In this document: one piece after another, positions 7,339-30,136 of the stretch
Layout: the number at the start of each line of letters is the position of its first letter
Position numbering within the stretch: position 1 is the first letter of the stretch
Source: Lysobacteraceae bacterium
Lineage (GTDB): Bacteria > Pseudomonadota > Gammaproteobacteria > Xanthomonadales > Xanthomonadaceae
Direction of reading: 5' to 3'
Assembly (NCBI GenBank): GCA_024508915.1
Contig: JANINR010000057.1
Coordinates: 1 to 41,506 of the forward strand
Length of the DNA stretch: 41,506 nt
Program-made: the position numbers and the translations under genes
The notes under the pieces: generated by a model
What the model saw: only the letters and a program-made list of their open reading frames with translations
What the model was told of the DNA's origin: nothing
Database searches by the model: none

Positions 7339-8085
7339 ATGAAGATCCTCGTCGGTTACAAGCGTGTCGTGGACTACAACGTCCGCATCCAGGTCAAGCC
7401 CGACGGCTCGGGCGTGGTCACGGACGGCGTGAAGCTCTCCGCCAACCCCTTCGACGAGATCGCACTGGAAGAGGCCCTGCGCCTGCGCGACAAGGGCATC
7501 GCCACCGAGGTCGTGGTCGCCACGATCGCACCGGCCGATGCCCAGGCGCACCTGCGCAACGGGCTGGCGATGGGCGCCAACCGCGCCATCCACGTCGTCG
7601 CCGACCAGCCGGTGCAGCCGCTGGCCGCGGCGCGCACGCTGCTCAAGCTCGTCGAGAAGGAACAGCCCGACCTCGTGATCCTCGGCAAGCAGGCGATCGA
7701 CGACGACGCCAACCAGACCGGGCAGATGCTCGCGACGCTGTGGGGCCGCCCGCAGGCGACGTTCGCCTCGAAGCTCGAGGTGGCCGGCGGCAAGGCGACC
7801 GTGGTGCGCGAAGTCGATGCCGGCCTCGAGACGCTCGAAGTCGAACTGCCCGCCGTCGTCACCACCGACCTGCGCCTCAACGAGCCGCGCTTCATCAAGC
7901 TGCCGGACATCATGAAGGCCAAGTCCAAGCCGCTGGAGACGATCGCGTTCGCCGACCTCGGCGTCGACGCGGGCGGCGGGCTCGACACCACGCACTACGC
8001 GCCGCCTGCGAAGCGCAGCCGCGGCGTGATGGTGAAGGATGCGGCCGAACTGGTCGCGATGCTGAAGCAGAAGGGGTTGCTGTGA
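7339..8085 (+). CDS. etfB: Electron transfer flavoprotein beta subunit
   Basis: The 248-residue AMP-binding subunit of ETF, the heterodimer that shuttles electrons from flavin dehydrogenases to ETF-QO. It begins [20 protein letters not shown] and contains the beta-subunit signature region [18 protein letters not shown] (near 185-203), both typical of EtfB. Its TGA overlaps the etfA ATG by one base, so both subunits are coupled. The redox target, ETF-QO, is encoded at 112-1821. Confidence 0.97.
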
Positions 8086-9032
8086 TGGGTAGCAAGGTCC
8101 TCGTCGTCGCCGAACACCTGGACGGCAGGCTCAACGCCGCCACCGCGCGCTGCGTGTCCGCCGCGCAGGCGTTGTCGCCGGATGCCGTCGACATCGTCGT
8201 GCTGGCCGCCGATCCTGCCGCCGTCGCCGCGGAAGCGGCGAAGGTCGCGGGCGTTTCGAAGGTGCTGGCCGTCGCGAACCCCGCCAACGCGCACGCGATC
8301 GCGCAGGTGCTCGCGCCGCAGGTGGCGAAGCTCGCGGCCGGGTACACGCACGTGTTCGGCCCGTCGACGACCTTCGGCAAGGACCTGATGCCGTGCATCG
8401 CCGCGCTGCTCGGCGTCGCGCAGGTGTCCGACGTGATGGCGGTCGAAGGCGAACGCACGTTCAAGCGCCCGATCTATGCGGGCAACGCCATCGTCACCGT
8501 GCAGGCGCCGGAAGGCCAGGCGGTCGTCGCGACGATCCGCACGGCCTCGTGGCCCGAAGCCGCGCGCGGCGGCAACGCGCCGGTGGAGGCCGCGGCCGTG
8601 GATGCCGCGCTCCCGGCGCATACGCGGTACGCCGGGCTCGCCGCCGGCAAGTCCGACCGCCCCGACCTGCAGAGCGCGAAGCGCGTGGTGTCCGGTGGCC
8701 GCGGCGTGGGCTCGAAGGAGAACTTCGACATCATCTACAAGTTCGCCGACCGGCTCGGCGCGGCGGTCGGCGCCTCGCGTGCCGCGGTCGACGCCGGCTA
8801 CGTGCCGAACGAGCTGCAGGTCGGCCAGACCGGCAAGATCATCGCGCCCGAGCTCTACGTCGCCGTCGGCATCAGCGGCGCGATCCAGCACCTCACCGGC
8901 ATCAAGGACGCCGGCACGATCGTGGCGATCAACAAGGACGGCGACGCGCCGATCTTCGAGGTCGCGGACATCGGGCTGGTCGGCGACCTGTTCCAGGTGC
9001 TGCCCGAGCTCGAGAAAGCGCTGGGCGGCTGA
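8085..9032 (+). CDS. etfA: Electron transfer flavoprotein alpha subunit
   Basis: FAD-binding subunit of ETF, 315 residues starting [14 protein letters not shown] at the ATG 8085-8087. The C-terminal FAD domain is clear: VGQTGKIIAPELYVAVGISG is the EtfA signature, followed by KDAGTIVAINKDGDAPIFEVAD. In xanthomonads etfA marks one border of the variable LPS locus, and here the glycan genes begin only four bases after its stop. Confidence 0.97.
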   Translation: MGSKVLVVAEHLDGRLNAATARCVSAAQALSPDAVDIVVLAADPAAVAAEAAKVAGVSKVLAVANPANAHAIAQVLAPQVAKLAAGYTHVFGPSTTFGKDLMPCIAALLGVAQVSDVMAVEGERTFKRPIYAGNAIVTVQAPEGQAVVATIRTASWPEAARGGNAPVEAAAVDAALPAHTRYAGLAAGKSDRPDLQSAKRVVSGGRGVGSKENFDIIYKFADRLGAAVGASRAAVDAGYVPNELQVGQTGKIIAPELYVAVGISGAIQHLTGIKDAGTIVAINKDGDAPIFEVADIGLVGDLFQVLPELEKALGG

Positions 9033-9036: not shown

Positions 9037-9582
9037 ATGCCGACGTTCCGGCACCGCGCGCTGCTGCTCGCCGCCTCCGCGACGCTGCTGGCGGCCGGCT
9101 GCCGCGAACGGCAGGTGCCCGCCGCGCCCGCGGTGCCTCCGACGTCCGATGCACGACCCGCACCGGCGGTCGGCGCCGCGCCGCTGCCCGCCGCGGAACT
9201 GCGCGCCGCGCGCGCCGATCCTTCGCTCTGCTCGCTGGATCGAATCGACGAGGCCTACGCCCAGGGGACGCTCGCGGTCGACCGCGGCCGGGCGGTGCGC
9301 CTGCGCGGCTGGTTCGGCACCAGGGCGCACCAGCCCGCCGGCGAATTCCGCCTGGTGCTCGCCGGCACCACGTCCGCGTGGGCGCTGCCGGCGCACACCG
9401 GCGAACCGCGGCCCGATACCGCCGAATACTTCCAGGCGCCGGCGATGGGCACGGCCGGCTTCGACTTCGAAGCCGACCTGTCCGCAGTGCCGGCCGGCAC
9501 TGCGTACCGCATCGTCCTGCTGGCGCCCGAGGGCGACGCTTCGGTCGCCTGCGACACGGGCCGGGGGCTGCGCCTGCAATGA
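9037..9582 (+). CDS. Predicted lipoprotein of unknown function at the O-antigen locus border
   Basis: A 181-residue protein with a type II signal peptide: a short basic start, a hydrophobic run and the lipobox LLAAGC with Cys22 as the lipidation site. The mature part starts with a Pro/Ala-rich linker, followed by a domain of about 130 residues with two more cysteines (near residues 64 and 173) that could form a disulfide. I do not recognise the fold. The gene starts four bases after etfA, and its stop overlaps the next glycosyltransferase start by four bases (ATGA). Coupling to a glycosyltransferase suggests a role in envelope glycan assembly, but this is inferred from position only. Confidence 0.75.
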   Translation: MPTFRHRALLLAASATLLAAGCRERQVPAAPAVPPTSDARPAPAVGAAPLPAAELRAARADPSLCSLDRIDEAYAQGTLAVDRGRAVRLRGWFGTRAHQPAGEFRLVLAGTTSAWALPAHTGEPRPDTAEYFQAPAMGTAGFDFEADLSAVPAGTAYRIVLLAPEGDASVACDTGRGLRLQ

Positions 9583-10583
9583 GCGCCTGCATCGCCGTCG
9601 TCGTGCCGTGCCACCGCGTCCGCGCGCACGTCGCGGGCGTCCTCGCCGCCATCGGCCCGGAAGTCGAGACGATCTACTGCGTCGACGACGCCTGCCCCGA
9701 CGCCAGCGGCGACTACATCGAATCGCTCGGCGACCCGCGCGTGCGCGTGCTGCGGCACGCGACCAACCAGGGCGTCGGCGGCGCGGTGATCACCGGCTAT
9801 CGCCAGGCCATCGCCGACGGCGCGGACGTCATCGTCAAGCTCGACGGCGACGGGCAGATGGATCCTGCGCTGCTGCCCGGCTTCGTCGCCCCGGTGCTCG
9901 CCGGCGAGTGCGACTACGCCAAGGGCAACCGTTTCTGGGACCTGGAGCAGATCGGCGAGATGCCGCTGGTCCGCCGCATCGGCAACCTGTGCCTGAGCTT
10001 CCTCTCCAAGGCGTCCACCGGTTACTGGGACGTGTTCGACCCGACCAACGGCTACACCGCGATCCACGCGCGCGTCGCCGCGCACCTGCCGTTCGACCGC
10101 GTCAGCAAGCGCTATTTCTTCGAATCGGACTTGCTGTTCCGGCTCAACACGATCCGCGCCGTGGTCGCCGACGTGCCGATGGACGCGCGCTACCGCGACG
10201 AGGTCAGCGGCCTCAGCGTGACCCGCGCCGCCGGCGAATTCCTGTTCCGGCACGCGCGCAACTTCTGCAAGCGCATCGCCTACAACTATTTCCTGCGCGA
10301 CCTGTCGCTCGCCTCGCTGGAGCTGGTCGCCGCCGCGGGACTGCTTGCGTTCGCGCTGTGCTTCGGCGGCTGGCACTGGCTGCACTCGATCCGCTACCAC
10401 GCCACCGCGCCGGTGGGCACGATCATGGTGGCCACGGTGGCGGTGGTGTCGGGGCTGCAGTTCCTGCTCGCCTTCCTCGGCTCCGACATCGCCTCCGTCC
10501 CGCGCCGGCCGCTGGGCCCGGCGCTGGCCGCACGCGCTTCCCATGCCCCGGGGCGCGCACAAGGAGACTCGCGTGACGCATGA
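9579..10583 (+). CDS. Family 2 glycosyltransferase, polyprenyl-phosphate (DPM1/GtrB-like) type
   Basis: A 334-residue protein with an N-terminal GT-A domain. VVVPCHR opens the nucleotide-binding fold, CVDDACPD follows, and KLDGDGQMD contains the metal-binding D89-x-D91. After the catalytic domain come two hydrophobic segments (roughly 240-268 and 280-303), the layout of dolichol/polyprenyl-phosphate sugar synthases such as GtrB. It would charge undecaprenyl phosphate with one sugar on the cytoplasmic face. The start ATG overlaps the lipoprotein stop. The next gene encodes a four-helix flippase-like protein and overlaps this gene's 3' end by 11 bp, which supports a lipid-linked sugar pathway. 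Sugar identity is unknown. Confidence 0.85.
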   Translation: MSACIAVVVPCHRVRAHVAGVLAAIGPEVETIYCVDDACPDASGDYIESLGDPRVRVLRHATNQGVGGAVITGYRQAIADGADVIVKLDGDGQMDPALLPGFVAPVLAGECDYAKGNRFWDLEQIGEMPLVRRIGNLCLSFLSKASTGYWDVFDPTNGYTAIHARVAAHLPFDRVSKRYFFESDLLFRLNTIRAVVADVPMDARYRDEVSGLSVTRAAGEFLFRHARNFCKRIAYNYFLRDLSLASLELVAAAGLLAFALCFGGWHWLHSIRYHATAPVGTIMVATVAVVSGLQFLLAFLGSDIASVPRRPLGPALAARASHAPGRAQGDSRDA

Positions 10584-10929
10584 CCTCGATGCCAGGAACG
10601 TGGCGATGATCGTCGCCACCATCGCCCTGCTCGGCTTCGGCCAGGTGCTGTTCAAGTACGCCGCCACGACCCTGCAGCCGGGCGACCTGCGCAGCTGGCT
10701 GTCGCTGCCGCTCGCCGCTGCGCTGCTGGTCTACGGGGCGGCCACGATCGCGTGGTTGCTCGTGCTCGCGCGCGTGCCGCTCTCGACCGCGTTCCCGTTC
10801 TACGGCCTGGCGTTCCTGTTCGTGCCGATCCTGTCGGCGTGGCTGCTCGGCGAACGGCTGCGCTGGTCGACCCTGGTCGGCGGGCTGATCATCATCGCCG
10901 GCATCCTCGTCAGCTCGCGCCAGCGATGA
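10573..10929 (+). CDS. Small four-helix EamA/SMR-type membrane protein, candidate lipid-linked sugar flippase
   Basis: A 118-residue protein with four predicted transmembrane helices (about 12-31, 43-66, 75-93 and 99-115) and the LLGERLRW segment before helix 4 that is common in EamA/SMR transporters. I chose the GTG at 10573, which has AAGGAGA about six bases upstream; the first ATG is 11 codons later, at the edge of helix 1. Relatives include ArnE/ArnF, which flip undecaprenyl-phosphate aminoarabinose. Adjacent to a polyprenyl-phosphate glycosyltransferase, the likely role is translocation of that lipid-linked sugar to the periplasm. A general small-molecule exporter role is the alternative. 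Confidence 0.78.
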   Translation: MTHDLDARNVAMIVATIALLGFGQVLFKYAATTLQPGDLRSWLSLPLAAALLVYGAATIAWLLVLARVPLSTAFPFYGLAFLFVPILSAWLLGERLRWSTLVGGLIIIAGILVSSRQR

Positions 10930-11852
10930 CGCCCGCGCGCTGCGAAGCCTGCGACGCGCCGCTCCGCGCCGGCCTCGCCCCCTGGCACCGCCGGTGCCCG
11001 TCCTGCGGCCTGGAGTCGAGCACGCTCACGCCCGCCATCGGCGAAGGCGGCGCCGCGGCCCGCATCGACGAGGACGCGCGCGAGACGGCCCTGCAGCCGA
11101 TCCGCGACCACAACTTCGACCTGCTCCTGCGCTGGCTCCTCGGCGTTCTGCCGGCGGCCGCAGGCGCCGCGCCGCCGCGACGCCTGCTCGACGTGGGCTG
11201 CGCTCACGGCTGGTTCGCCGCCAAGGCCGCGGCGGCGGGATTCGACGTCCTGGGCATCGAACCCGATGCGGCCATCGCCGCCCGGGCCGAAGCGCGCGGC
11301 GTGCGCGTGCGCGCCGGCTATTTCCCCGATGCGCTCGAAGCCGGGGAGTCGTTCGACGCGATCGTGTTCAACGACGTCCTGGAGCACGTGCCCGGCGTGG
11401 TCGACGCGATGCGGGCCTGCCGCGACCGGCTCGGCGACGGCGGCCTGCTGGTGGTGAACGCGCCCGACCGCCGCGGTCCCTTCTACCGCACGGCCGCGCT
11501 GCTCTGGCGCGCCGGCGTGCGCGGGCCGTTCGAGCGGATGTGGCAGAAGGACATGCCGTCGCCGCACCTCTACTACTTCGACGACGCGTCCATGGCGCAG
11601 GCCGCCGCGGCCGCCGGCCTGCGCGTGCGCGCCACGCGCCGGCTGCCCGCGCTTGCGCTGCGCGGCCTGTACGCGCGGATCCGCTTCGACCGCAGCCTGT
11701 CGGCGCCGGCCGCGCTGCTGCTCTACGCGGGATCGCTGGCGCTGCTGCCCGTGCTCCGGCTCCTGCCTTCCGACATCAGCGTCTGGTTCCTGGAGCCGGG
11801 CCGCAGCAACAGCCACACGCCAAGCACGGTCGACAGGCAGGCGACCGGGTAG
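10926..11852 (+). CDS. SAM-dependent methyltransferase with N-terminal zinc ribbon
   Basis: A 308-residue protein. Four cysteines (C6, C9, C24, C27) form a CxxC...CxxC zinc ribbon. Motif I LDVGCAHGW (88-96) binds SAM, and FNDVLEHVPG (148-157) is the post-motif typical of class I methyltransferases in LPS clusters. The target could be a sugar hydroxyl or carboxyl, or the chain end. The start overlaps the flippase stop (ATGA). The last 43 codons overlap the convergent membrane-protein gene on the other strand. The C-terminal residues after about 295 look unlike a family tail and may be read-through into that gene's antisense. Confidence 0.85.
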   Translation: MTPARCEACDAPLRAGLAPWHRRCPSCGLESSTLTPAIGEGGAAARIDEDARETALQPIRDHNFDLLLRWLLGVLPAAAGAAPPRRLLDVGCAHGWFAAKAAAAGFDVLGIEPDAAIAARAEARGVRVRAGYFPDALEAGESFDAIVFNDVLEHVPGVVDAMRACRDRLGDGGLLVVNAPDRRGPFYRTAALLWRAGVRGPFERMWQKDMPSPHLYYFDDASMAQAAAAAGLRVRATRRLPALALRGLYARIRFDRSLSAPAALLLYAGSLALLPVLRLLPSDISVWFLEPGRSNSHTPSTVDRQATG

Positions 11853-13132
11853 AGGTAGCGGAAGTCGCAGGCGATCGTCGTCGGCACGAACGAACCGAGG
11901 TACAAGCCCGCCGCGAGCGCGCCCGCGCGAAGCACGACGGCGTCGGGCCCGCGCCGCCGGAGCGCGGCGATCGCCGCCAGCAGCAGCATGCCGGCATAGA
12001 ACCAGTGGCGGAACACCGGCGTGGGCTCCAGCGCCGTCGCCGTGCGCCCGATGAACCGGTCGCGCGGATCCATCTCTTCGCGCAGGCCGAGCGGTTCCTG
12101 GTATTCCGGGATGATCGCGGTGCCCCAGTACGCGGGAACGCAGCCCGCGATGCCGTCGAAGCCCAGCAGCGCGCGCAGCGCCGCGACCCGGTGGCTGGCG
12201 TAGGCGACCGGATCGTGGCGGATGCCGGCCCACCAGGCCTCGCGCAGGCTGGCGTCCCCCAGGCCACTGAAATACTTGCGCGCGAACGCGTCGCGCCACA
12301 CGAAGTCGATGCGCTCCGGGCTGTACAGGTATTGCACCTGCTGCCGCGTCGCGGCATCCGCGCCGCTCCACGCCGAAGGATCCCCTGGCCGCGCGTACGC
12401 CATCATGCCGGCGATGTCGTAGGCGCGGATGGTGCTGAAGCCCACCGCCATCGGGCTCTTCGGCAGGGGCGAGATGGTCGCGTCGGACAGCCGGCCCAGG
12501 GCGAAGGTCGATGCCGCGGACACCGCCAGGACCGCTGCGACCACTGCCACGCGCCCGCCGCGCCGCGTTCCCGCGAGAGGCTCCGCGCGCGCCAGCAGCC
12601 ACGCCGCCGCCATCGCCAGCGGCACCGACAGCAGCAGGCCCTGCTGCCGCAGCAGCGCCATCGGCGCGATCGCGAGCAGCGCCACCGCGACCGCCCGGCG
12701 CCGCCTGCGCGCATCGCCGGTCGAGGCGACGAGCAGCGCCGTGAGCGCCACCATCGCGCAGCTCGCGAGCATCACGTCCTTCCACAGGATGCCCGCGTAG
12801 AACGCGAACAGCGGGTTCAGCACCAGCAGCAGCGCGAGCGCGCGGCGCCAGGGCGACGGGGAACCCGCCGCCACCGTGAGCAATACCGCGAAACAGCCGT
12901 AGATGGCGAGCGTGTCCAACGCGACGAACAGGCTGGCGCCGAGCGCGCCGCCGCCGAGCCAGCGCAACGCCGCCGCGAAGAACGTGGGGCCCCAGCCGAT
13001 CGCATGGCCGACGAGACCTTCGTAGAGCGCGACCCCGGAGTCCACCGACATCTGTCCCGGCGCGTGGAGGGCCGCGATCAGCGCCGCGAACAGCGCCATG
13101 CCGAAGAACACCGCCGTGCGCCACCAACGCAT
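11723..13132 (-). CDS. Multi-pass membrane protein, candidate GT-C (GtrC-like) glycosyltransferase
   Basis: A 469-residue protein with about ten hydrophobic helices. Helix 1 is followed by a short loop with an acidic residue (PGQMSVDSG, D31), the position used catalytically in many GT-C enzymes. A large soluble loop (about 230-360) contains aromatic-rich segments such as YLYSPERIDFVW, as in periplasmic sugar-binding loops. Its ATG lies one base after the stop of the upstream glycosyltransferase. It could transfer a sugar from a lipid carrier onto O-antigen or lipid A in the periplasm. The 3' end overlaps the methyltransferase gene by 130 bp, and the last 20 or so Ser/Arg-rich residues look non-conserved. 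No family name is certain; a polymerase-like role is possible. Confidence 0.72.
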   Translation of the reverse strand: MRWWRTAVFFGMALFAALIAALHAPGQMSVDSGVALYEGLVGHAIGWGPTFFAAALRWLGGGALGASLFVALDTLAIYGCFAVLLTVAAGSPSPWRRALALLLVLNPLFAFYAGILWKDVMLASCAMVALTALLVASTGDARRRRRAVAVALLAIAPMALLRQQGLLLSVPLAMAAAWLLARAEPLAGTRRGGRVAVVAAVLAVSAASTFALGRLSDATISPLPKSPMAVGFSTIRAYDIAGMMAYARPGDPSAWSGADAATRQQVQYLYSPERIDFVWRDAFARKYFSGLGDASLREAWWAGIRHDPVAYASHRVAALRALLGFDGIAGCVPAYWGTAIIPEYQEPLGLREEMDPRDRFIGRTATALEPTPVFRHWFYAGMLLLAAIAALRRRGPDAVVLRAGALAAGLYLGSFVPTTIACDFRYLYPVACLSTVLGVWLLLRPGSRNQTLMSEGRSRSTGSSASDPA

Positions 13133-13133: not shown

Positions 13134-13991
13134 TCAGGCACGCCCCCGCAACACGCGCCGCAATGCGCGCAGGACGCGCGCGGCGAAGCCGGCCAGGCGC
13201 GGATGCCGCGCCGCCGCCGCTTCCAGCCAGCCGTAGCGCGCACGGTAACGCGCCAGTTCTTCGGCCAGCGCGAACCGGTGCTCGAACAGGACCTCGGCGT
13301 TGCGCGCGTAGAAGTCGATGTTGTCGCGGAAGATGCCCGCGTAGGTGGCGACCACCACCGCACGGTCGCGCGCGAAACCGGAGGTGCGCGACTCGGCCTG
13401 CACGCGGTAGTGGAACAGCGCCTCGTCGAGCTGGAGCACGCGGCAGCCGGCGTTCACCAGCCGCACCCAGAAGTCGTAGTCCTCGACCCCGTGCCGCAGG
13501 TGCTCGCCGAAGCCGCCGACGCGCGCCCAGTCGGCCTTGCGGAACACGGCGCTGACGAAGATCACGTTGTCGATCACCAGCTCTCGCAGCGTGTAGTCCG
13601 GCAGCTGCCAGGGCCCTTCGGCCGCGCCGAAGCGCGTCGCGCGGCAATACACCACGCCCAGCCCCGGATCCGCGGCGAAGGCGGCCATCGCCTTCTCCAC
13701 GTAGGTCGGATCGATGCGGTCGTCGGCGTCCAGCGGCAGGATGAACTCCCCCGTCGCTTCGCGGATCGCCGCATTGCGCGCCGCCGACGGCCCGGCGTTG
13801 GCCTGGCGCAGCACGCGCGTGCGCGGCCATGCGGCCTCGTCGAGCAACCGGCGCGTCGCAGCATCGGTCGAGCCGTCGTCGACGACGACGACCTCGACGT
13901 CCGGCCAGGTCTGCGCGAGCGCGGACTGGACGGCCTCGTCGATGAACTGCCCCGCGTTGAAGCAGGGGATGACGATCGAAACCCTGCTCAC
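13134..13991 (-). CDS. Family 2 glycosyltransferase
   Basis: Cytoplasmic GT-A enzyme of 285 residues. It starts VSIVIPCFNAGQF and has the nucleotide-binding VVDDGSTD (37-44) and the metal-binding LDADD (87-91). The acceptor-side segment GVEDYDFWVRL (near 164) contains the ED motif usual in family 2 enzymes. It has no transmembrane helices. It should add one sugar to the growing lipid-linked O-antigen. It sits between a second glycosyltransferase and the GT-C-like protein in the minus-strand block led by wzm and wzt. Confidence 0.9.
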   Translation of the reverse strand: MSRVSIVIPCFNAGQFIDEAVQSALAQTWPDVEVVVVDDGSTDAATRRLLDEAAWPRTRVLRQANAGPSAARNAAIREATGEFILPLDADDRIDPTYVEKAMAAFAADPGLGVVYCRATRFGAAEGPWQLPDYTLRELVIDNVIFVSAVFRKADWARVGGFGEHLRHGVEDYDFWVRLVNAGCRVLQLDEALFHYRVQAESRTSGFARDRAVVVATYAGIFRDNIDFYARNAEVLFEHRFALAEELARYRARYGWLEAAAARHPRLAGFAARVLRALRRVLRGRA

Positions 13992-14010: not shown

Positions 14011-15180
14011 TCATCGCGTGCTCTCGCTGGTTCCGAATGCCTTGCGCACGGCCTTGCGCACCGTCATGCCGATCCCGACCTCGCGCACCGAGCGCGCGAC
14101 GCGATCCAGGATGCCCATGCCCGCCACCGCAACGGCAACGTCCCCGCTGCCGCCGGCCTCGAGCGGCTCGACAGGCGCGCCGGTGGCCGATGCGGCGGCC
14201 AGGATCGCTGCGTCGCCGGACTCGAACGGCCGCGGGATCAGCGTCCAGAGCGCCGGCTCGCGATACGCCACGCGCGCCTGCCTGCCGATCGGCCGGCCGT
14301 CGGCGTAGGTGGCGTAGCTCCAGGGCGTGCGGCCCAGCGTCTCCTGGCCGTGCGCGGCCAGCAGCCGCCTGTACTCGCCGTACAACCCCTCGAACGTCGC
14401 GCGGTTGTCGTCGGTGAGCCACCAGCCGATCGCCTTGTCGATCGTCCCGGAGTCCAGGCCGGAGAAATGGATGAAGCGCAGCGGGTCGCCGTTCGCGCTG
14501 TACCCGCCGCCGGGCGCGGGGCGCAGGTCGCTGCCCAGCAGCGACCAGGTCGCGAAGTCGTAGCCGTGGTGCTTGAGGATGTGCACGTCGAAGAACGACG
14601 GCGCCAGGTCGATCCACTTCTGGTCGGTGAAGATGCCGCGGCTCTTGTCGTCGTAGCAGTAAAGGAACAGGCGGTCGGCCCACCACTGCAGGAACGCCGC
14701 GGCGTTCGGCGCGCGCGAGACGGCGAGGAAGCCGAGGTTGTAGCTGCCGTGCGCGAGCGAGCTGATCTCCATGTCGATGTTGCCCGGCCGCAGCAGGTGC
14801 GGGCACAGCACGATGGACTCGCGGTCCAGCAGCGCCTCGAGTTCCGACAGGTCGCTGTACACGAGCACGTCGGGGTCGAGGTAGACGAACTTGTCCGCGT
14901 CCCCGTGCGTCTCCACGAGGTGCTGCATGAAGCGCGGCTTCACCGCGGTCGACGCTTCCACGATCGAATGCCGGAACATGAACGCGTCGAAATTGTCCCA
15001 GCCGGCATCCTTCGCGAGCACGACCTCGTCGAAGTGCGGGAAGGCGGCGGCGGCAGGGTGCACCTCGCGCTCGACCAGGCACAGCACGAAGCGCGCCCCC
15101 GGGCAGTGGCGCTTGACCGATTCGGCGAGCGCCATCGCCTTGGGCAGGTAGTTGGCGCAGATGGAAGTGAAGAAGATCAT
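14011..15180 (-). CDS. Glycosyltransferase with a DPD metal-binding motif
   Basis: A 389-residue soluble protein. It starts MIFFTSICANYLPKA, a nucleotide-diphosphosugar transferase opening, and has YLDPDVLVY around D102-P-D104, consistent with a GT-A metal site. Further conserved-looking parts are YNLGFLAVSR, FTDQKWIDL and RFIHFSGLD, the pattern seen in GT8-like retaining enzymes of LPS clusters. The last 90 residues are variable and Ala/Arg-rich. Its ATG overlaps the sulfotransferase stop by four bases (ATGA), so it is coupled to that gene. Donor and acceptor cannot be predicted. Confidence 0.82.
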   Translation of the reverse strand: MIFFTSICANYLPKAMALAESVKRHCPGARFVLCLVEREVHPAAAAFPHFDEVVLAKDAGWDNFDAFMFRHSIVEASTAVKPRFMQHLVETHGDADKFVYLDPDVLVYSDLSELEALLDRESIVLCPHLLRPGNIDMEISSLAHGSYNLGFLAVSRAPNAAAFLQWWADRLFLYCYDDKSRGIFTDQKWIDLAPSFFDVHILKHHGYDFATWSLLGSDLRPAPGGGYSANGDPLRFIHFSGLDSGTIDKAIGWWLTDDNRATFEGLYGEYRRLLAAHGQETLGRTPWSYATYADGRPIGRQARVAYREPALWTLIPRPFESGDAAILAAASATGAPVEPLEAGGSGDVAVAVAGMGILDRVARSVREVGIGMTVRKAVRKAFGTSESTR

Positions 15181-16505
15181 CGATGTCGTCCGCGAAACCC
15201 CGTGAATGTCTTGTCGGCGAAGGCCTTGAGCGCGCGCAGCGGCCGGGTCAGGCGCCACGACATCGACCCCAGCATCGCGGCGAGCTCGTCCTCGCGCGCC
15301 GCCAGCACCCGCCGGGATTCGGCGAGCGCCTGCCCTGCTTCGTCGAGCGCGTGCCGGCTCGCGTCCAGCTCATGTTCGTAGCGCTCGGCGCGCGCCTCCC
15401 AGTCCGCCACCGCCTGTTCCGACCAGCGCACCTGCGCGATGAGGTCCGAGCGCACGCCCGCGAGCTCGGCCTGCAGCGCGTCGCGCTCGGCGTAGCGCTC
15501 GGCCTGCAGCCGGTCCCGCTCGGCGAAACGCTCGGCCAGCAGCCTCTCCCGCTCGGCGACGGCCGCTTCCGACCACGCGATCTGCGCGATCAGTTCCGAG
15601 CGCATGCGCGCGTTCTCGGCCTCGAGGTCGTCGCGCAACGCGCGCGCCTTGCGCTCGACGTCCATCGCCATCGCGGCCAGCGCGTCGAGCGAGCCGCCGG
15701 ACCGCTGCCAGATGGCGTCGAGCGCGGCGCCGGCATCGGCGATCGCCTCCCACCCGCCGCCGCCGGCGGCGATCGCGTCGAGCGCGGCCTGCGCCTGCGC
15801 GACCGGCGCCGCGAACAGATGGGTGGCCGCCTCGCCGCGGCCGCGCTGGTGGCGCTGGCCGGCGTCGGCGAACGCGCGCAAGGCCTCGTCCGCGACGGAG
15901 GGCAGCTCCACGCCCAGCCGCCCGAGCGCCGCGCGCAGGCTCCCGGCAGGATCGGCAAGCAGGCCGGCATAGGAAATCGCGGTGCGCGGGATGCCGCGCG
16001 TCGCCGCTTCCGCGTCGCAGACGTGGCGCAGCCACAGCAGCTCGCCCAGCGGCGGCGCCCAGCGGTTGCGCGCCTCGATCGATGCGGCCACCTCGGCCGG
16101 ATCGCGGGCGACGAACAGCGCCACCGCGCGGATGCCGCGGGCGCGCAACGCCTCGAGCCAGGCCGGCAGCAACCGGCACATCCGCGGATCCTTCAGCGCG
16201 AACAGCGGCGCGGTGCCGAAGTCGGCCGCGAGCAGCGCATCGATCTCGGCGACCGCTTCGCGCGCGGCGGCGCCTTCCGCCCAGCCCGCCGGCAGGGGGC
16301 GGGCATCGGCCCAGCCCGAGCCCAGCGCGGCCAGCAGCCGCTCGTCGATGGCGACGGCGCGCTCGTGCTCGAAATAGCCCTTCGGATTGTCTTCGCCGGG
16401 CGGCAGCAGTTCGCTGCCCAGGGCGACGCCGCACAGCTCCAGCGCGCCGGCCGTTGCCGACGTTCCGCTGCGGTGCATGCCGACGACGAGGATGGCCGTC
16501 TGCAT
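15177..16505 (-). CDS. Sulfotransferase-family protein with long C-terminal coiled coil
   Basis: A 442-residue protein. Residues 1-225 are a PAPS-type sulfotransferase domain: the 5'-phosphosulfate loop GMHRSGTS (9-16) and the 3'-phosphate region VARDPAEVAASIEAR (132-146) are both present. Residues about 275-412 are an uninterrupted charged coiled coil with internal repeats. One 50-residue period has RSELIAQIAWSE (302-313) matching RSDLIAQVRWSE (352-363), and two near-identical 11-residue units lie at 324-345. The tail SWRLTRPLR (416-424) is a C-terminal motif common in LPS-cluster enzymes. It lies between wzt (TGATG overlap) and a glycosyltransferase (ATGA overlap). It may sulfate the glycan. 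A chain-cap and length-control role is inferred from architecture. Confidence 0.85.
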   Translation of the reverse strand: MQTAILVVGMHRSGTSATAGALELCGVALGSELLPPGEDNPKGYFEHERAVAIDERLLAALGSGWADARPLPAGWAEGAAAREAVAEIDALLAADFGTAPLFALKDPRMCRLLPAWLEALRARGIRAVALFVARDPAEVAASIEARNRWAPPLGELLWLRHVCDAEAATRGIPRTAISYAGLLADPAGSLRAALGRLGVELPSVADEALRAFADAGQRHQRGRGEAATHLFAAPVAQAQAALDAIAAGGGGWEAIADAGAALDAIWQRSGGSLDALAAMAMDVERKARALRDDLEAENARMRSELIAQIAWSEAAVAERERLLAERFAERDRLQAERYAERDALQAELAGVRSDLIAQVRWSEQAVADWEARAERYEHELDASRHALDEAGQALAESRRVLAAREDELAAMLGSMSWRLTRPLRALKAFADKTFTGFRGRHR

Positions 16506-17875
16506 CAGGCGACCCCCGCGACCAGCACTTCCGGCCTGACGTCGAGGTCGACGAACCCGGTGGCGAGGCGCTGCGGCTGCTGCATCACCCGGAACATCGC
16601 CACGTCGATGCGACGGTCGGCGTAGTCCTCTCCGGACTCGCCGCGCGCGAGCACGCCGGCATTGCCGAAGTAAACGCCGGGCGCCAGCAGGCAGCGGAAG
16701 CGGAAGCGCACCTCGAGCGAGGCCCCGCGCTCGACCGCGGGGATCGCGTCCTCGCGCGTCGATGTCGCCGCGCCGGCGATCTCCACGCCGGCGATCGAGC
16801 GGATCATCATGCCGCAGCGCACCCCCGCCAGCGTGCGCGCGAAGTCGACCGTGTACGCGTACACGTATTCGTCGCCGGCGACGATCACGTTGACGCGCTC
16901 CCCCCCGGGCGTCTCGATGCGGACGTCGCCGATGCGCGCGCCGCGCGATTCGTAGGCGATGGTGCTGGAGGGGACCATGCCGTCGTCCCAGTACGCGCGC
17001 GACGCGCCTCCGGTCTTCGGCACCGCGACGCCCGGCGGGGCGCCGGCCTGGGCGACCGACGGCGCCTCGTCCACGTCGAGCCCGCCCGCGCCCTCCGCTC
17101 GGATCTGCTCGCGCACTTCGCCCACGCGTTCGGGCGGGGCGTAGAGCAGCTTCTGGTAGCGCGACACGATGTTGCGCGGCGTGCCCTGGGCCAGCAGCTC
17201 GCCATGGTCGAGCAGGACCGCGCGGTCGCACAGGTCCACGACCGTGCCGGCCGAATGCGAGACGAACAGCACCGTCGCGCCGCCGTCGCGGATCTGGTCG
17301 ATCCGGGCGAAGCACTTGCGCTGGAACGCCTCGTCGCCGACGGCGAGCGCCTCGTCCACCACGAGGATGTCGGGCTCCACGTTGCTCGCCACCGCGAAGG
17401 CGAGGCGCACGTACATGCCGCTGGAGTAGGTCTTGACCGGCTGGTCCATGAACTCGCCGATGTCCGCGAACGCCGCGATGCCGTCGAAGCGCGCATCGAG
17501 TTCGGCGCGCCCGAGGCCGAGCACGGCGCCGTACATGTAGACGTTCTCGCGACCCGTGAACTCGGGGTTGAAGCCCGCGCCGAGCTCCAGCAGCGCCGCG
17601 ATGCGCCCCGCGACCGCCACCTCGCCGGTGGTCGGCGCCAGCGTGCCGCAGATCAGCTGCAGCAGCGTGGACTTGCCGGATCCGTTGCGCCCGACGATGC
17701 CGACGGTCTCGCCGCGGCGGATGTCGAGGTCCAGCGGCTGCAGGGCGTGGAAGTCGCGGTGCCAGCGCCCGTCGCGCCGCGGATCGAGCAATTGCAGCAG
17801 CCGGTGGTGCGGCTGCCGGTAGACCGGGAACACCTTCGACACGCCGCGGATGCGGATGGCGGCGTCAGAGGACAT
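16505..17875 (-). CDS. wzt: O-antigen ABC exporter ATPase with carbohydrate-binding C-terminal domain
   Basis: A 456-residue Wzt. Residues 1-240 are the ABC ATPase, with Walker A GRNGSGKST (62-70), signature YSSGMYVRLAFA (150-161), Walker B ILVVDEALAVGD (170-181) and the switch His in FVSHS (204-208). After a linker (about 255-285), residues 285-456 form a beta-rich domain of the Wzt C-terminal carbohydrate-binding type. That domain binds the finished, modified non-reducing end of the polymer before export. It overlaps wzm by 11 bp upstream and the sulfotransferase by one base downstream. The long form of Wzt implies that chain termination by a chemical cap precedes export. Confidence 0.92.
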   Translation of the reverse strand: MSSDAAIRIRGVSKVFPVYRQPHHRLLQLLDPRRDGRWHRDFHALQPLDLDIRRGETVGIVGRNGSGKSTLLQLICGTLAPTTGEVAVAGRIAALLELGAGFNPEFTGRENVYMYGAVLGLGRAELDARFDGIAAFADIGEFMDQPVKTYSSGMYVRLAFAVASNVEPDILVVDEALAVGDEAFQRKCFARIDQIRDGGATVLFVSHSAGTVVDLCDRAVLLDHGELLAQGTPRNIVSRYQKLLYAPPERVGEVREQIRAEGAGGLDVDEAPSVAQAGAPPGVAVPKTGGASRAYWDDGMVPSSTIAYESRGARIGDVRIETPGGERVNVIVAGDEYVYAYTVDFARTLAGVRCGMMIRSIAGVEIAGAATSTREDAIPAVERGASLEVRFRFRCLLAPGVYFGNAGVLARGESGEDYADRRIDVAMFRVMQQPQRLATGFVDLDVRPEVLVAGVA

Positions 17876-18677
17876 CCGCGAATCCCTTCCGCGTCGCGTT
17901 GAACCACGCCCAGCCGCCGGCGAACACGACGAGCGCCGCGAGCAGGTACAGCGCGAGCCCCGCCCAGTCCGGCATCGCGCCCCACAGCATCACGTTGCGC
18001 GCCTGGTCGATGATGAAGCTGAGCGGGTTGGCCTCGAACACCCAGCGATAGGCCTCCGGCACGCTCTCCAGCGGCATCATCGCCGACGACAGGAACAGCA
18101 GGGCCATGCTCAGCACGCCGGTCACCTGGCGGACGTCGCGGAAATACACCGACAGCGCGGCCAGGAACCACGACACGCCGAGCGCCAGCACCACCAGCGG
18201 GAACATCACCACCGGCAGCAGCACCACGCTCCAGGTGAACTCGCCGTCCATGAGCAGGCGCAGCACGATGAACACGACGGTGTTCATCGCCACGTGGAAG
18301 AGCGCCGACATCACCATCGGCCACGGCAGTATCTCGAGCGGGAAGATCACCCGCTTCACGAAATTGGGATTGCCCACCACCAGTTCCGGCGCGCGGTTCA
18401 GGCACTCGGCGAAGAAGCCGTGCACGATCAGGCCCGCGAACAGCACGATCGAATAGTGCGTGCTGCCGCTCTCGACCTGTGGCCAGCGCCCGCCCATCAC
18501 CGTGCCGAAGGCGAACGTGTAGATGCCGAGCAGCAGGAACGGGCTGATGAGCGACCACAGCAGGCCGAAGCTCGCGCCCCGGTAGCGCCCCAGCACGTCG
18601 CGCCTGGCGAGTTCCCAGGCCAGCGAACGGTGCCGCCCGAGCACCGAGAGGGGCCCGCCGGGTCGGGTGCCGATCAA
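17865..18677 (-). CDS. wzm: O-antigen ABC exporter permease
   Basis: Polytopic ABC-2 family permease of 270 residues with about six transmembrane helices. The family N-terminus LAWELARRDVLGRYRGASFG lies just before the first helix. It partners Wzt to export lipid-linked polysaccharide across the inner membrane. The longest frame begins with a TTG codon at 18677, only four bases after the metB stop, with a weak AAGG upstream. A GTG at 18644 is an alternative start. The tight spacing suggests reinitiation after metB or a promoter inside metB. Confidence 0.9.
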   Translation of the reverse strand: MIGTRPGGPLSVLGRHRSLAWELARRDVLGRYRGASFGLLWSLISPFLLLGIYTFAFGTVMGGRWPQVESGSTHYSIVLFAGLIVHGFFAECLNRAPELVVGNPNFVKRVIFPLEILPWPMVMSALFHVAMNTVVFIVLRLLMDGEFTWSVVLLPVVMFPLVVLALGVSWFLAALSVYFRDVRQVTGVLSMALLFLSSAMMPLESVPEAYRWVFEANPLSFIIDQARNVMLWGAMPDWAGLALYLLAALVVFAGGWAWFNATRKGFADVL

Positions 18678-18681: not shown

Positions 18682-19833
18682 TTATCCCGCCAGCGCCTGC
18701 AGGACGTCGTCGCGCAGGTCCGCCACGTCCTCCACGCCCACGCTCAGGCGCACGAGGTTGTCGGTCACGCCGAGCTGCGCGCGGCGCTCGGCCGGCACGG
18801 AGGCGTGCGTCATCACCGCCGGGTGGTTGGCCAGGCTCTCGACGCCGCCCAGGCTTTCGGCGCAGGCGAACAGCTGCAGGCGCTCCATGAACGCCTTGGC
18901 GGCATCGAAGCCGCCCTCCAGCCAGACGCTGACCATGCCGCCGTAGCCCTGCATCTGCCGGCTCGCGAGCGCATGCTGCGGATGCGAGGCGAGGCCCGGG
19001 TACGCGACGCGCTCGACCTTCGGGTGGCCTTCGAGCACCTGCGCCAGCGCCATCGCGTTGTCGCAGTGCGCGCGCATGCGCAGGTGCAGCGTCTTCAGGC
19101 CGCGCAGGCCGAGGAAGCTGTCGAACGGGCCCTGGATGCCGCCGACCGCGTTCTGCAGGAACGCCATGCGCTCGGCCAGGTCCGCGTCGTCGCCGACCAC
19201 CGCCATGCCGCCGACGATGTCGGAGTGGCCGTTGAGGTACTTGGTCGCCGAATGCATCACCATGTGCGCACCGAGTTCCAGCGGGCGCTGCACCATCGGG
19301 CTGCAGAACGTGTTGTCGACCACCACCAGCAGGCCGCGCTTGCGCGCGCGCTCCGCGACCGCGGCGATGTCGACGAGCTTGAGCGTCGGATTGGTCGGCG
19401 TCTCGAGCCAGACCATGCGCGTTTCGGGGCGGATCGCCGCGTCCAGCGACGCCGGGTCGGCGAGGTCGACGAAACTGAAGTCGAGGCCGGCGCTGCGCCG
19501 GCGCACGCGCTCGAACAGCCGGTAGGTGCCGCCGTACACGTCGTCGGCGCAGACCACGTGGCTGCCGGTGTCGAGCAGCTCGAGGATGGTCGAGGTCGCG
19601 GCGAGCCCGGACGCGAAGGCGAAGCCGCGGCTGCCGCCTTCGAGGTCGGCGACGCAGCGTTCCCAGGCGAACCGGGTCGGGTTGTGGCTGCGCGAATACT
19701 CGTAGCCCTGGTGCACGCCCGGGCTGGACTGCACGTAGGTCGAGGTCGCGTAGATCGGCGTCATCACCGCGCCGGTCGACGGGTCGGGCGACTGGCCGGC
19801 ATGGATGGCACGGGTACCGAGGCGATGGGCCAT
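18682..19833 (-). CDS. metB: Cystathionine gamma-synthase/gamma-lyase family PLP enzyme
   Basis: Trans-sulfuration enzyme of 383 residues; the PLP lysine is K198 in HSATKYLNGHSD. Other family elements are YSRSHNPTR (46-54), ASGLAATS (74-81) and the VDNTFCSPM segment. It should join activated homoserine and cysteine to cystathionine, or cleave cystathionine; the sequence alone does not separate the two. The ATG at 19833 has AGGA eight bases upstream and gives the usual start MAHRLGTRAIHAG. In Xanthomonas this gene is the other border of the LPS locus. A cystathionine beta-synthase at 33075-34457 would complete a reverse route. Confidence 0.93.
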   Translation of the reverse strand: MAHRLGTRAIHAGQSPDPSTGAVMTPIYATSTYVQSSPGVHQGYEYSRSHNPTRFAWERCVADLEGGSRGFAFASGLAATSTILELLDTGSHVVCADDVYGGTYRLFERVRRRSAGLDFSFVDLADPASLDAAIRPETRMVWLETPTNPTLKLVDIAAVAERARKRGLLVVVDNTFCSPMVQRPLELGAHMVMHSATKYLNGHSDIVGGMAVVGDDADLAERMAFLQNAVGGIQGPFDSFLGLRGLKTLHLRMRAHCDNAMALAQVLEGHPKVERVAYPGLASHPQHALASRQMQGYGGMVSVWLEGGFDAAKAFMERLQLFACAESLGGVESLANHPAVMTHASVPAERRAQLGVTDNLVRLSVGVEDVADLRDDVLQALAG

Positions 19834-22751: not shown

Positions 22752-24902
22752 TCAGGGGGTCGCCGGCTCGGCCGGGAGGGCGGGCGCGTCGGCCCCGAAA
22801 CGGGAGTCCACGGCACCGAAACGCGCCTTCAGGGCATCGGTGATCTCCCGCGCCTGGTCGGCATCTTCCACGACGTACGGGGTGATGAGCATCAGCAGCT
22901 CAGTGCGCTGGCCATGGCGGTTGCGGTTCTGGAAGAAGCGCCCCAGGACCGGCACGTCGCCCAGCAGCGGCACCTTGGTCTTGCCGTCGGTGGTGCTGGA
23001 GGAGATCAGGCCGCCGAGCAGCATGCTCTGGCCGTCGGAGAGGCTCAGGCTCGTCTGCAGCTTGCGGCTGAAGATGCTGGGCGAGGAAATGTCGCTGGTG
23101 TCGGTCGGCGTGGCCTCGCTCACTTCCTGCGAGAGCTTGAGGTCCACGCGCTGGCCCGAGTGCACCACCGCCTCGATCTCGAGCAGCACGCCGGTCTTGC
23201 GGTACTGGATCGACTGCAGGATCGAGCTGGTGCCGCCGGTGGTGGGCAGGTCCACCGCGGTGGCCTGGCTGGTGATGATGGGGACCTCGGTGCCGACGTC
23301 GATGCTGGCGGTCTCGCCGCTCTTCACCATCAGCCGCGGCGTGGACAGGATCGACACGCGGCTGTCCTTCGCGAACAGGTTCACGACCGCCCGGACCTGG
23401 CCCGAGGACGACAGCGCGCGCCACACCAGGCTGCCCGTGGCCGGATCGCTGCCGCCGAGCGCCGTGACCGGACCGTTCATGCCGTCGATGCCGACGTTGC
23501 GCAGCGCCCACTCGATGCCGTGCGCGAGGTCGTCGGTCAGCGTCACCTCGGCGACGGTCACCTCGATCACGACCTGGCGCGCCGGCTGGTCGAGGCGCTC
23601 GAGCACGCTGCGGATGGCGCGCCAGCGCTGAGGGTCGCCCTGGTAGACGATGACGTTGCGGATCGGGTCCACCGCGACCTGCCCGCCGCTGCCCGCGATC
23701 GTGGTCGGCGTGCGCCCGCCCGCGCCGCGGACGCCCGACGTGGTGTTGCTGCCGGCGGTGGTGTTGCTGCCGGTCGTGCCCGCGTTCGCGGCCGCCGCCA
23801 TCGAGCTGCCGGCGCCGACCATCGTCTGCAGCACGGGCAACAGCGTTTCCACGGTCGTATGCCGCGCCGGATACATGTAGACGCCGCCGGCGCCGCCGTC
23901 GTTCTCGTTCGGCTGGTCCAGCTTCTCCGCCCACTCGGCGACCGCGCGCAGCGCCGGCTCCGATTCGCTGAAGACGATCAGCGCATTGGCCGAGGGCACC
24001 GGCACGAAAGTCAGCACGCCGGACGTACCCGCCGTGGTGCGCACCGAATAGCCCTGCGCGACCAGCACGTTGCGCAGTTCCTCCGAGAGCTGGTCGACCG
24101 GCAGGTAGAGCGGATTGATCCGCAGCGAGTGCTTGTCGCGCAGCGATGCGCGGTCGAGCGCGAGCGCGGCTTCCATCGCCGCCTGCACGTCGCTGCCGGG
24201 GCCGCTGATGAGCAGCGCGTTGGCGTCGAGCATCTCGGCGATGGTCACGCCCTTGGTGCCCACCACGGCACGCAGCTGGCCGGCCACCGCGCCGGGCGTG
24301 CTCGCATCGAGCGGCAGCGCCACGTACACGGTGCGCTGGCCCGCCGGCACGTCGGGCAGCGAGCGCGTGGTCAGGAGCTTCGGCGCGCGCGAGCTTTCGT
24401 CGGGCACCGGCGTGAAGCGCAGCACGCCGCCGCGCTCGGACACGTCGACGCCGTAATCCTTCAGCACCGCGACGCCGATGCGGTACAGCTCTTCCGGCGC
24501 CGTGGGCTTGGTCAGCCGCAGGCTCACCAGGTCGGGGCGCGCGCGCACGGCCTGCTCGATCTCCAGCCCGAAGCCGAGCTCGGTGCCGAACACGACGTTG
24601 ATGAAGGACGCCATCGGCACGCCGTCGAGCACCAGCGACGTCGGCTTCGTGCGCGGGATCGGCGGAACCACCAACGCCTTTTCCACCGGCTTGGCGGCGG
24701 TCGCGGACCTCGCCTCGACCACCGGGCCCTGTTCGATCCGCTGGCGCCCGCCTTCGGCCGACTGCGTGTCCACCGGCACCGGGTTCGGGCCGCGCAGCGG
24801 CTCGGGGAACGCCGGCGGGCGGGTGGCGCACGCGGCGAGCACGCCGGCGAGGACGGCCAGCAGCAGCACGCGGCAACGGACGATGGAAACGGATCGGATC
24901 AT
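22752..24902 (-). CDS. xpsD: Type II secretion outer-membrane secretin, lipoprotein form
   Basis: Secretin of 716 residues that forms the outer-membrane channel. It has a lipobox LAAC with Cys25 as the acylated residue; xanthomonad XpsD is also a lipoprotein. Periplasmic N domains include VYMYPARHTTVETLLPVL and RNVIVYQGDP. The C-terminal secretin domain runs from about residue 440, with VEVTVAEVTLTDDL-like and VPLLGDVPVLGRFF signatures. The Ser/Thr/Asn-rich loop near residues 375-395 contains a duplicated GSNTT unit. It is the last gene of the operon, and its ATG overlaps the upstream stop by four bases. Confidence 0.95.
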   Translation of the reverse strand: MIRSVSIVRCRVLLLAVLAGVLAACATRPPAFPEPLRGPNPVPVDTQSAEGGRQRIEQGPVVEARSATAAKPVEKALVVPPIPRTKPTSLVLDGVPMASFINVVFGTELGFGLEIEQAVRARPDLVSLRLTKPTAPEELYRIGVAVLKDYGVDVSERGGVLRFTPVPDESSRAPKLLTTRSLPDVPAGQRTVYVALPLDASTPGAVAGQLRAVVGTKGVTIAEMLDANALLISGPGSDVQAAMEAALALDRASLRDKHSLRINPLYLPVDQLSEELRNVLVAQGYSVRTTAGTSGVLTFVPVPSANALIVFSESEPALRAVAEWAEKLDQPNENDGGAGGVYMYPARHTTVETLLPVLQTMVGAGSSMAAAANAGTTGSNTTAGSNTTSGVRGAGGRTPTTIAGSGGQVAVDPIRNVIVYQGDPQRWRAIRSVLERLDQPARQVVIEVTVAEVTLTDDLAHGIEWALRNVGIDGMNGPVTALGGSDPATGSLVWRALSSSGQVRAVVNLFAKDSRVSILSTPRLMVKSGETASIDVGTEVPIITSQATAVDLPTTGGTSSILQSIQYRKTGVLLEIEAVVHSGQRVDLKLSQEVSEATPTDTSDISSPSIFSRKLQTSLSLSDGQSMLLGGLISSSTTDGKTKVPLLGDVPVLGRFFQNRNRHGQRTELLMLITPYVVEDADQAREITDALKARFGAVDSRFGADAPALPAEPATP
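23740..23775. repeat. 18-bp tandem duplication in xpsD
   Basis: Two near-identical 18-bp units (GTGGTGTTGCTGCCGG followed by CG or TC) lie at 23740-23757 and 23758-23775. They encode duplicated GSNTTA/GSNTTS in a low-complexity periplasmic loop of the secretin. Confidence 0.8.
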
Positions 24903-25360
24903 GGATTCGGGTTCTGCGACGGCAATGGATCGGTGAGCCACTCGTGCTCGCGCTTGTTCCCTTCCCGGTCGGTCCAGGCGACCCGGGTGCGGGAGACTTC
25001 GGTGACCTTGCCCCCATCGGGCAGGCGGCTACCGGCCTTCACCTGGACCTCCGGCTGGCCGGAGGCAACGAAAACGGCCTGCCAGGCGCGGCCGGTCGCC
25101 AGCACCCCGACCGGAAGATACGGGGGCGGCGGCGGCGGCGCAGCCTCGGGCGCCTTGGGAGCCCCCCACGGGGCCCGGTCATTCCAGACCGCGTCGGGTT
25201 TCGCGAGTTCCTGCTTTTCCCTGGCCGGGAGCCTCCAGTCTACATGGGCGTCGGCAACGGGCGCCCCCGGGTCGGGCTGGGTACCGAGGGCCAGGAAGGC
25301 GACGCACCCGGCGGCGAAGGCCGCGGCGGTCGCCCAGGCCCGCTTCGCCCAGGCCTTCAT
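24899..25360 (-). CDS. xpsN: Type II secretion protein XpsN (GspC-like inner-membrane protein)
   Basis: A 153-residue bitopic protein. A single N-terminal transmembrane helix (about 6-27) is followed by a Pro-rich spacer including seven prolines near 75-81. A small C-terminal domain (about 82-148: VGVLATGRAWQAVFVASG, then VKAGSRLPDGGKVTEVS) resembles the HR domain of GspC/PilP proteins that contacts the secretin. No separate gspC is present in the operon, so this protein probably bridges the inner-membrane platform and XpsD. Four-base overlaps join it to both neighbours. Homology to the HR domain is judged by eye. Confidence 0.8.
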   Translation of the reverse strand: MKAWAKRAWATAAAFAAGCVAFLALGTQPDPGAPVADAHVDWRLPAREKQELAKPDAVWNDRAPWGAPKAPEAAPPPPPPYLPVGVLATGRAWQAVFVASGQPEVQVKAGSRLPDGGKVTEVSRTRVAWTDREGNKREHEWLTDPLPSQNPNP

Positions 25361-27179: not shown

Positions 27180-27189
27180 GGGCGCGCCC

Positions 27190-30119: not shown

Positions 30120-30136
30120 GGGGACTCCGTGGTGCG

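Follow-up and report, generated by a model that had tools for sequence, protein, structure and literature searches.

A GtrB-like synthase, an EamA/ArnE-like predicted flippase and a GT-C fold protein as a probable glycosylation module in a chromosomal O-antigen locus of a Lysobacteraceae bacterium

Small membrane proteins of the ArnE/ArnF and GtrA kinds are grouped as flippases for lipid-linked sugars (PMC7389260), and an ArnE-like flippase has been proposed as the partner of a GT-C enzyme that modifies an O-antigen exported by an ATP-binding cassette (ABC) transporter in Citrobacter (PMC11127046). The lipopolysaccharide (LPS) cluster of Xanthomonas is described as lying between metB and etfA and as strongly variable (PMC524487, PMC2238763), and in strains BXO8 and Xac 306 it is reported to consist of two convergent transcriptional units (PMC2238763). 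Here, a stretch of 41,506 nucleotides from a Lysobacteraceae bacterium (contig JANINR010000057.1 of assembly GCA_024508915.1; hereafter the window), part of a 2.39-Mb draft genome, was analyzed with a focus on three genes and their products: P0001, a GtrB-like glycosyltransferase of family 2 (GT2), P0002, a small EamA/ArnE-like protein, and P0003, a GT-C protein (Table 1). L-numbers denote loci and G-numbers genomes.

Together with their neighbours, these genes most probably constitute one extracytoplasmic glycosylation module inside a chromosomal O-antigen locus of the ABC transporter type. In the model that we infer from the computed families, GT-C fold, conserved neighbourhood and flippase class exclusivity and swapping, P0001 would transfer a sugar from a nucleotide donor to undecaprenyl phosphate on the cytoplasmic side, P0002, which probably forms a homodimer, would carry the lipid-linked sugar to the periplasmic face, and P0003 would hand the sugar on to the exported O-polysaccharide, its presumed acceptor, before ligation. 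An immunoglobulin (Ig)-like putative lipoprotein perhaps helps P0003, and a methyltransferase may add methyl groups to the donor sugar or to the polymer. This would be the same module as the (lipoprotein) > GT-C > GtrB > GtrA sets carried on a single strand by relatives, except that here the etfA-side genes lie on the opposite strand, and that the place of GtrA in those relatives is taken by an EamA-type protein. An earlier interpretation made from the letters of the window (the sequence-only reading) had proposed a phage-type Gtr module in three open reading frames (ORFs); all three are present where it placed them, and it had missed the methyltransferase and the lipoprotein, which belong to the same module.

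P0001 matched Glycos_transf_2 in Pfam (E 6.2e-16), dolichol monophosphate mannose (DPM) synthase in the PDB (E 3.5e-10) and the PHROG family 'GtrB-like O-antigen conversion' (E 9.4e-12). A simple hydropathy count gave two hydrophobic segments, C-terminal by eye, in agreement with the GtrB/DPM1-type enzyme first proposed, and the motifs NQGVGG, DGDG and FDPTNGY were found at 63, 89 and 153, respectively. The GtrB family was detected in 38 of the 149 genomes of the family at E<=1e-40 (this and the following genome counts include the window's genome).

P0002 scored 44.0 bits against the EamA profile (cut-off 28.2), and its nearest NCBIfam model was ArnE, at 43.5 bits and below the cut-off of 92. 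With about 110 residues, four hydrophobic segments by hydropathy count and the EamA profile, it corresponds in size and profile to the small glycolipid flippases of the SMR/DMT type, and the assignment to the EamA/SMR class, not to GtrA, stands. Its gene overlaps that of P0001 by 11 bp. Sixteen of the 17 EamA matches in the genome occur in tandem pairs, P0002 being the sole one outside a pair. Among 20 EamA-type proteins, 16 show the first helix in full, and on inspection by eye no acidic residue lies in that helix just before the GQxLxK-like stretch in any of the 16; a review describes the central glutamate of drug exporters as often absent from lipid-flipping SMR proteins (PMC9574504). Close relatives of P0002 (E<=1e-10) were found in seven of the 149 genomes. 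They lie at most about 2.2 kb from this GtrB in three (the window, G016 and G124). In two (G118 and G103) weak matches to GT2s of a different kind lie about 1.5 kb away, and in G143 the relative is beside etfA and the methyltransferase, on a contig that ends; no glycosyltransferase was detected near the relative in G102. That such a flippase might consistently be found without the glycosyltransferase, the case named as fatal to the sequence-only reading, is thus only partly excluded.

P0003 had no match in NCBIfam and a single row in Pfam (E 0.67); none of the 16 rows of its family matched Pfam better than E 0.034, and a sequence search of the PDB with the family profile gave no match. The predicted model (predicted local distance difference test, pLDDT, 89.6; predicted template modelling score, pTM, 0.90) has the GT-C fold, as had been suspected from the letters. 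Foldseek rows at E<=0.001 were AglB and two ArnT entries (AglB E 3.6e-5, query TM 0.39; ArnT E 1.5e-4, query TM 0.33). VIA-align carries a warning that helical proteins can reach Z values up to about 13 by chance; 10 rows exceeded that value. It aligned Pmt4 over 323 residues at 4.6 A (Z 17.5), Pmt2 with Z 17.3, and ArnT over 283 residues at 4.3 A (Z 16.2). By name, rows 1-44 (Z down to 7.4) are GT-C enzymes or complexes containing one, except for a GPI transamidase entry at rank 25; divisome chains follow, with Z 6.3 and 6.0. All 16 rows share S29 and D31, and parts of GI.WKDV and A.D.RY are invariant too. S29 and D31 come after the first helix (residues 2-23), and D31 may be the acidic residue of the first extracytoplasmic loop that serves in catalysis. 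This GT-C is found in three of the 149 genomes at E<=0.001.

The neighbourhood of the GT-C gene was compared in 16 loci, the window and 15 relatives from named records, seven of which bear names that we take to be those of Lysobacteraceae genera or of the family itself (Vulcaniibacterium was placed with NCBI). Weak rows (<45 bits and <30% identity) of two references were left out of the listing, and genes were called with a codon model trained on the window, which performs less well where G+C is lower. In 12 of the 16 loci, the GT-C gene has a clear GtrB or DPM gene within 10 kb, accompanied by GtrA in six and by an EamA-type protein in the other six; with the GT-C fold and the GtrB-like GT2, this supports the three activities proposed earlier. 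GT-C > GtrB > GtrA sets on one strand occur in L086, L087, L090 and L094, with other ORFs or a gap before GtrA in the last two; such single-strand sets come from Lysobacter and Arenimonas. GtrA is on the other strand in L089, and in L091 the GtrB and GtrA genes are oriented divergently to the GT-C gene. On the EamA side, L088 (Rhodanobacter panaciterrae) carries on one strand lipoprotein > GT-C > methyltransferase > GtrB > EamA, which is the whole set of the window; L093 has the order GT-C, GtrB, EamA, and L096 and L097 have lipoprotein, GT-C, EamA, DPM. In L098 (Pseudomonas simiae), EamA abuts GtrB a few kb from the GT-C gene. Seen from GtrB, a protein of >=350 residues and >=6 hydrophobic segments lies within 4.5 kb in 42 of 47 loci, a raw count without a chance control.

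Near GtrB, the two flippase classes exclude each other in the loci surveyed. A small flippase lies within 7 kb of GtrB in 28 of 37 family loci (window excluded), GtrA in 17, EamA in 11 and both in none; within 1 kb, the figures are 12, seven and none. Profiles for the flippases were hidden Markov models built from BLAST matches in the same loci, and the classes were then checked with Pfam, which agreed for all of the 18 EamA-type and all of the 21 GtrA-type proteins submitted. This check did not cover L055, whose GtrA is listed in the GtrA survey of the family genomes, nor L084, the extra GtrA copies in L077 and L079, or the duplicates L091 and L097. L077 and L079 have a tandem pair of GtrA genes near a single GtrB.

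In a GtrB tree of 46 rows, 37 of them labelled (L091 was omitted as a duplicate of L056 and is included in the 47-locus counts), flippase class changes at least nine times among the labelled rows. Labels are partly clustered, a value as low being reached in 1 of 500 shuffles for EamA and 9 of 500 for GtrA. The window GtrB is sister to the GtrA-linked GtrB of Arenimonas malthae (support 98/92), and this points to an exchange of flippase within a conserved module. A GT-C tree requires at least four changes among 12 labelled rows, and there the nearest row to the window is L086, a GtrA locus, with weak support (81/71). In the simplest interpretation, the donor synthase and the transferase were kept and the flippase beside them was replaced, in a direction that can only be inferred. 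This form of the module, with its EamA-class flippase and its GT-C gene on the other strand, had been called unusual, and this was half right: small EamA proteins accompany 11 of the 37 GtrB loci within 7 kb, and an ArnE-like flippase in a three-component system (PMC11127046) and two convergent units at this locus (PMC2238763) appear in published descriptions. The gene set itself is of a known kind, in which relatives keep exchanging GtrA and EamA flippases. Among open-access titles and starts of abstracts, no paper was found about a GtrA-EamA replacement at this locus.

The methyltransferase gene overlaps the EamA gene by 4 bp, and C6, C9, C24 and C27 are invariant in the six rows of its family. 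Matches better than 1e-30 within 7 kb were found in five of 15 EamA-labelled loci (L051, L059, L061 in fragments, L088 and the window), in one of nine unlabelled loci (L050) and in none of 23 GtrA-labelled loci, where the best was 1.3e-6. The link to EamA has a Fisher P of 0.006, or 0.007 without the duplicate, computed with a threshold set after seeing the data and ignoring kinship. Weaker matches occur in L072, L063, L052, L075 and L067 (EamA), L048 and L060 (GtrA), and L074 and L049 (neither). The homologue at L061:8257-9215 is probably broken or misassembled, since it is scattered over several frames.

The lipoprotein gene overlaps that of GtrB by 4 bp. Its putative lipobox was judged by eye. 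The nine rows of its family, 25-36% identical to the window row, include no member with a Pfam match better than E 0.053, and the gene lies directly upstream of the GT-C gene in L086, L087, L088, L089, L094, L096 and L097; in the window it lies upstream of GtrB. The predicted model (pLDDT 86.9) is an Ig-like sandwich. No more specific fold was assigned: structural matches were generic Ig-like sandwiches (best Z 7.4), without a Foldseek row at E<=0.001, and galectin rows in the profile search, at E 0.27 or worse, were not used.

Methyltransferase and GT-C genes overlap tail to tail over 130 bp (11723-11852). The conserved ends of the two proteins, picked by eye at residue 289 of the methyltransferase and residue 447 of the GT-C protein, both fall at coordinate 11792, past which each gene continues through the antisense strand of the other. 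This fits a rearrangement joining two blocks; drift of the stop codons would look alike.

The whole gene set lies in the hypervariable etfA-metB LPS locus of xanthomonads, chromosomal and beside Wzm/Wzt (Table 1). The plus-strand block runs lipoprotein, GtrB, EamA, methyltransferase, and the minus-strand block Wzm, Wzt, conserved protein, GT8-like, GT2, GT-C enzyme. The split into two converging blocks that was first noticed is thus real, and it is ordinary for the locus, because published etfA-metB versions also have two convergent units. The label 'phage-type' is not supported in this setting: among 50,697 phage records, P0003 had no match, and P0001 had four partial matches, all below 30% identity, so that a phage or prophage origin was rejected. 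A recent foreign origin was likewise dropped on composition, with no clear sign of it in module genes of G+C 0.695-0.767 against 0.719 for etfA and 0.712 for metB.

Table 1. Genes of the etfA-metB locus in the window, with the evidence for each assignment
Coordinates	Strand	Product	Evidence
8085..9032	+	etfA, flank of xanthomonad LPS locus	ETF_alpha E 5.5e-36
9037..9582	+	Putative lipoprotein, 181 aa, C-terminal Ig-like beta-sandwich	Predicted model; no Pfam match better than E 0.053
9579..10583	+	P0001, DPM1/GtrB-like GT2, predicted undecaprenyl-phosphate sugar synthase	Pfam, PDB and PHROG matches
10573..10929	+	P0002, four-helix EamA/ArnE-like (SMR-size) predicted flippase, GTG start	EamA profile
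10926..11852	+	S-adenosylmethionine-dependent methyltransferase, N-terminal CxxC..CxxC motif	Methyltransf_23 E 7.4e-23
11723..13132	-	P0003, GT-C fold membrane glycosyltransferase (predicted), family without clear Pfam match	Predicted model, fold search
13134..13991	-	GT2, predicted cytoplasmic O-polysaccharide glycosyltransferase	Glycos_transf_2 E 6.5e-33
14011..15180	-	GT8-like glycosyltransferase (weak)	Glyco_transf_8 E 0.002, 18.2 bits, below cut-off 24.3
15177..16505	-	Conserved locus protein; by eye only, N-terminus like that of sulfotransferases, C-terminus charged and coiled-coil-like	
16505..17875	-	Wzt, O-antigen ABC exporter ATPase with Wzt_C domain	Wzt_C E 3e-27, ABC_tran E 1.5e-22
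17865..18644	-	Wzm, O-antigen ABC exporter permease	ABC2_membrane E 3.3e-23
18682..19833	-	metB-type Cys/Met enzyme, flank of xanthomonad LPS locus	Cys_Met_Meta_PP E 1.8e-148

The conserved locus protein had no Pfam match at E<=0.01; homologues occupy the same place after Wzt in L086-L090, and it could be a chain terminator or length ruler. Within the genus, etfA was matched in eight of nine genomes, the window's genome counted, and the stretches at etfA were examined in the other seven (that of L105 is 5.9 kb only). None of the seven contains a P0003-type GT-C or a close GtrB. GT2s with 34-35% matches occur in L109 and L110, and these two loci together with L106 and L107 carry a different set, with GT2s, small EamA matches and multi-helix proteins, and by eye a DegT-type aminotransferase at etfA, for which Pfam gave confirmation in L110 only. 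Elsewhere in the window, a gene run on the minus strand (22752-33055), with four FTLLE-type N-termini, resembles by eye a type II secretion pseudopilin cluster.

Several observations weigh against a single module acting on O-polysaccharide. The functional assignment is computational throughout. In the window GT-C and GtrB are encoded on different strands, and five genomes of the same genus, searched whole, contain neither this GtrB (E<=1e-40) nor this GT-C (E<=0.001). Near the GT-C gene, no GtrB was detected in L092 or in L099, which ends about 240 bp after the match, and L095 and L100 gave only weak or partial GT2 matches there. Nine of the 37 GtrB loci lack a small flippase within 7 kb, three of them (L047, L058 and L062) on contig stretches ending within that distance, and P0002 relatives are near this GtrB in only three of seven genomes. 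The superpositions of P0003 in Foldseek are loose, with query TM 0.33 to 0.39 in the three best rows, and the limits given above for the Z scores and for the methyltransferase association belong here too. Finally, the genome also encodes a GtrA (contig C46:244-588; L104:217-600), which could flip this or another lipid-sugar. It is the one GtrA found in the genome. It lies at the edge of a contig, preceded by the tail of another gene, and any partner genes are therefore out of view.

This GtrA is the starting point of an alternative that we consider unlikely, in which it would flip the product of P0001, and P0002 with the methyltransferase would move another lipid or metabolite outside this pathway. 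Its presence in the genome says little, given that GtrA occurs in 141 of the 149 family genomes. In favour of this alternative, EamA and methyltransferase lie together away from GtrB, beyond etfAB, in L059, and on a 6-kb contig without GtrB in L085; L050 has methyltransferase and GtrB with no EamA detected, and four of the seven P0002 relatives are not near this GtrB. Against these stand the overlap between the P0001 and P0002 genes, the lack of a single case among 37 loci with GtrA and EamA together within 7 kb of GtrB, and L088, L093 and L098, where EamA lies <=3 bp from GtrB and no GtrA was detected within 7 kb. Very improbable is the idea that the GtrB-EamA-methyltransferase block and the GT-C gene are two unrelated pathways joined at a variable locus. 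The blocks do lie on opposite strands, and etfA-metB loci are described as mosaic (PMC2238763), but a GT-C of the same family is found <=360 bp from GtrB in L086, L087, L089, L090, L091, L093 and L094, and L088 holds all five genes together.

P0003 itself might do something else. That it is an O-antigen polymerase or ligase (Wzy or WaaL), or that it acts on protein or lipid A instead of O-polysaccharide, is distinctly unlikely when taken together, the protein or lipid A half being compatible with the rest of the module. Wzy and WaaL belong to the other GT-C subclass. The Pmt and ArnT rows scored Z 17.5 to 14.8, divisome FtsW complexes and RodA 6.3 to 5.0, and with the fold search favouring the Pmt/ArnT type, a polymerase or ligase was rejected. 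In structure it comes closest to protein O-mannosyltransferases and to ArnT, an enzyme of lipid A, so that its acceptor could be protein or lipid A; the gene lies, however, in an O-antigen locus whose ABC exporter bears Wzt_C, which argues for O-polysaccharide.

One extracytoplasmic module acting on O-polysaccharide thus remains the preferred reading. A more ambitious version is doubtful as a whole. It holds that the O-antigen module is conserved and its GT-C family undescribed; that GtrA and ArnE-like SMR flippases have been repeatedly interchanged, so that both would carry out a single common step on one lipid-sugar; that the EamA form is tied to a methyltransferase that would alter the lipid-linked sugar before flipping; and that the Ig-like lipoprotein would present the polymer to the GT-C enzyme. 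Loci with the same GtrB and GT-C families and a different flippase class would provide a natural swap experiment on small flippases; a review mentions signs of broader specificity for the Salmonella ArnE/F flippase (PMC9574504). The GT-C family, which lacks a clear Pfam match, would mark O-antigen modification in Lysobacteraceae, Rhodanobacter and some Pseudomonas.

The module would work like the Gtr and Arn three-component glycosylation systems, yet it fails defining features of both. With Gtr of Shigella and Salmonella phages it shares a DPM1-like GT2 with two C-terminal helices, a small flippase, a GT-C fold enzyme and presumed periplasmic action on O-antigen. Unlike Gtr, its cluster has an EamA/ArnE-like protein in place of GtrA (PF04138), the one GtrA found being on contig C46; its GT-C gene is on the minus strand and thus not co-directional with the others, as it is in L086, L087, L090 and L094; and it adjoins an ABC exporter and includes an extra methyltransferase and a lipoprotein. 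In contrast to the serotype-converting subset of Gtr, it is not phage-borne, lying in a chromosomal LPS locus flanked by etfA and metB. ArnC-ArnE/ArnF-ArnT offers a GT2 donor synthase, an SMR/EamA-class flippase and a GT-C enzyme of ArnT-like fold. It differs in that P0002 scores 43.5 bits for ArnE where 92 are required, that Arn has two flippase subunits whereas one single-domain EamA was found among the 17 matches of this draft genome (PF00893 not searched), that no arn sugar gene is among those annotated from etfA to metB, and that the presumed acceptor is O-polysaccharide. An Arn operon was rejected on the missed ArnE cut-off and the absence of a second single-domain EamA among those matches.

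The Xanthomonas etfA-metB locus, in the portions of its descriptions that were available (PMC524487, PMC2238763), comes without a GtrB-EamA-GT-C module, and is alike in its flanks, its Wzm/Wzt exporter, its two convergent units in BXO8 and Xac 306, and its variability. The pentofuranose system of Citrobacter youngae O1/O2 (GT136; PMC11127046), as far as its available account goes, has a donor synthase that depends on phosphoribosyl pyrophosphate where a GT2 is predicted here; an ArnE/EmrE-like four-helix flippase, a GT-C enzyme, likened to P0003 by description only, and an ABC-exported O-antigen are features that it shares with the module of the window.

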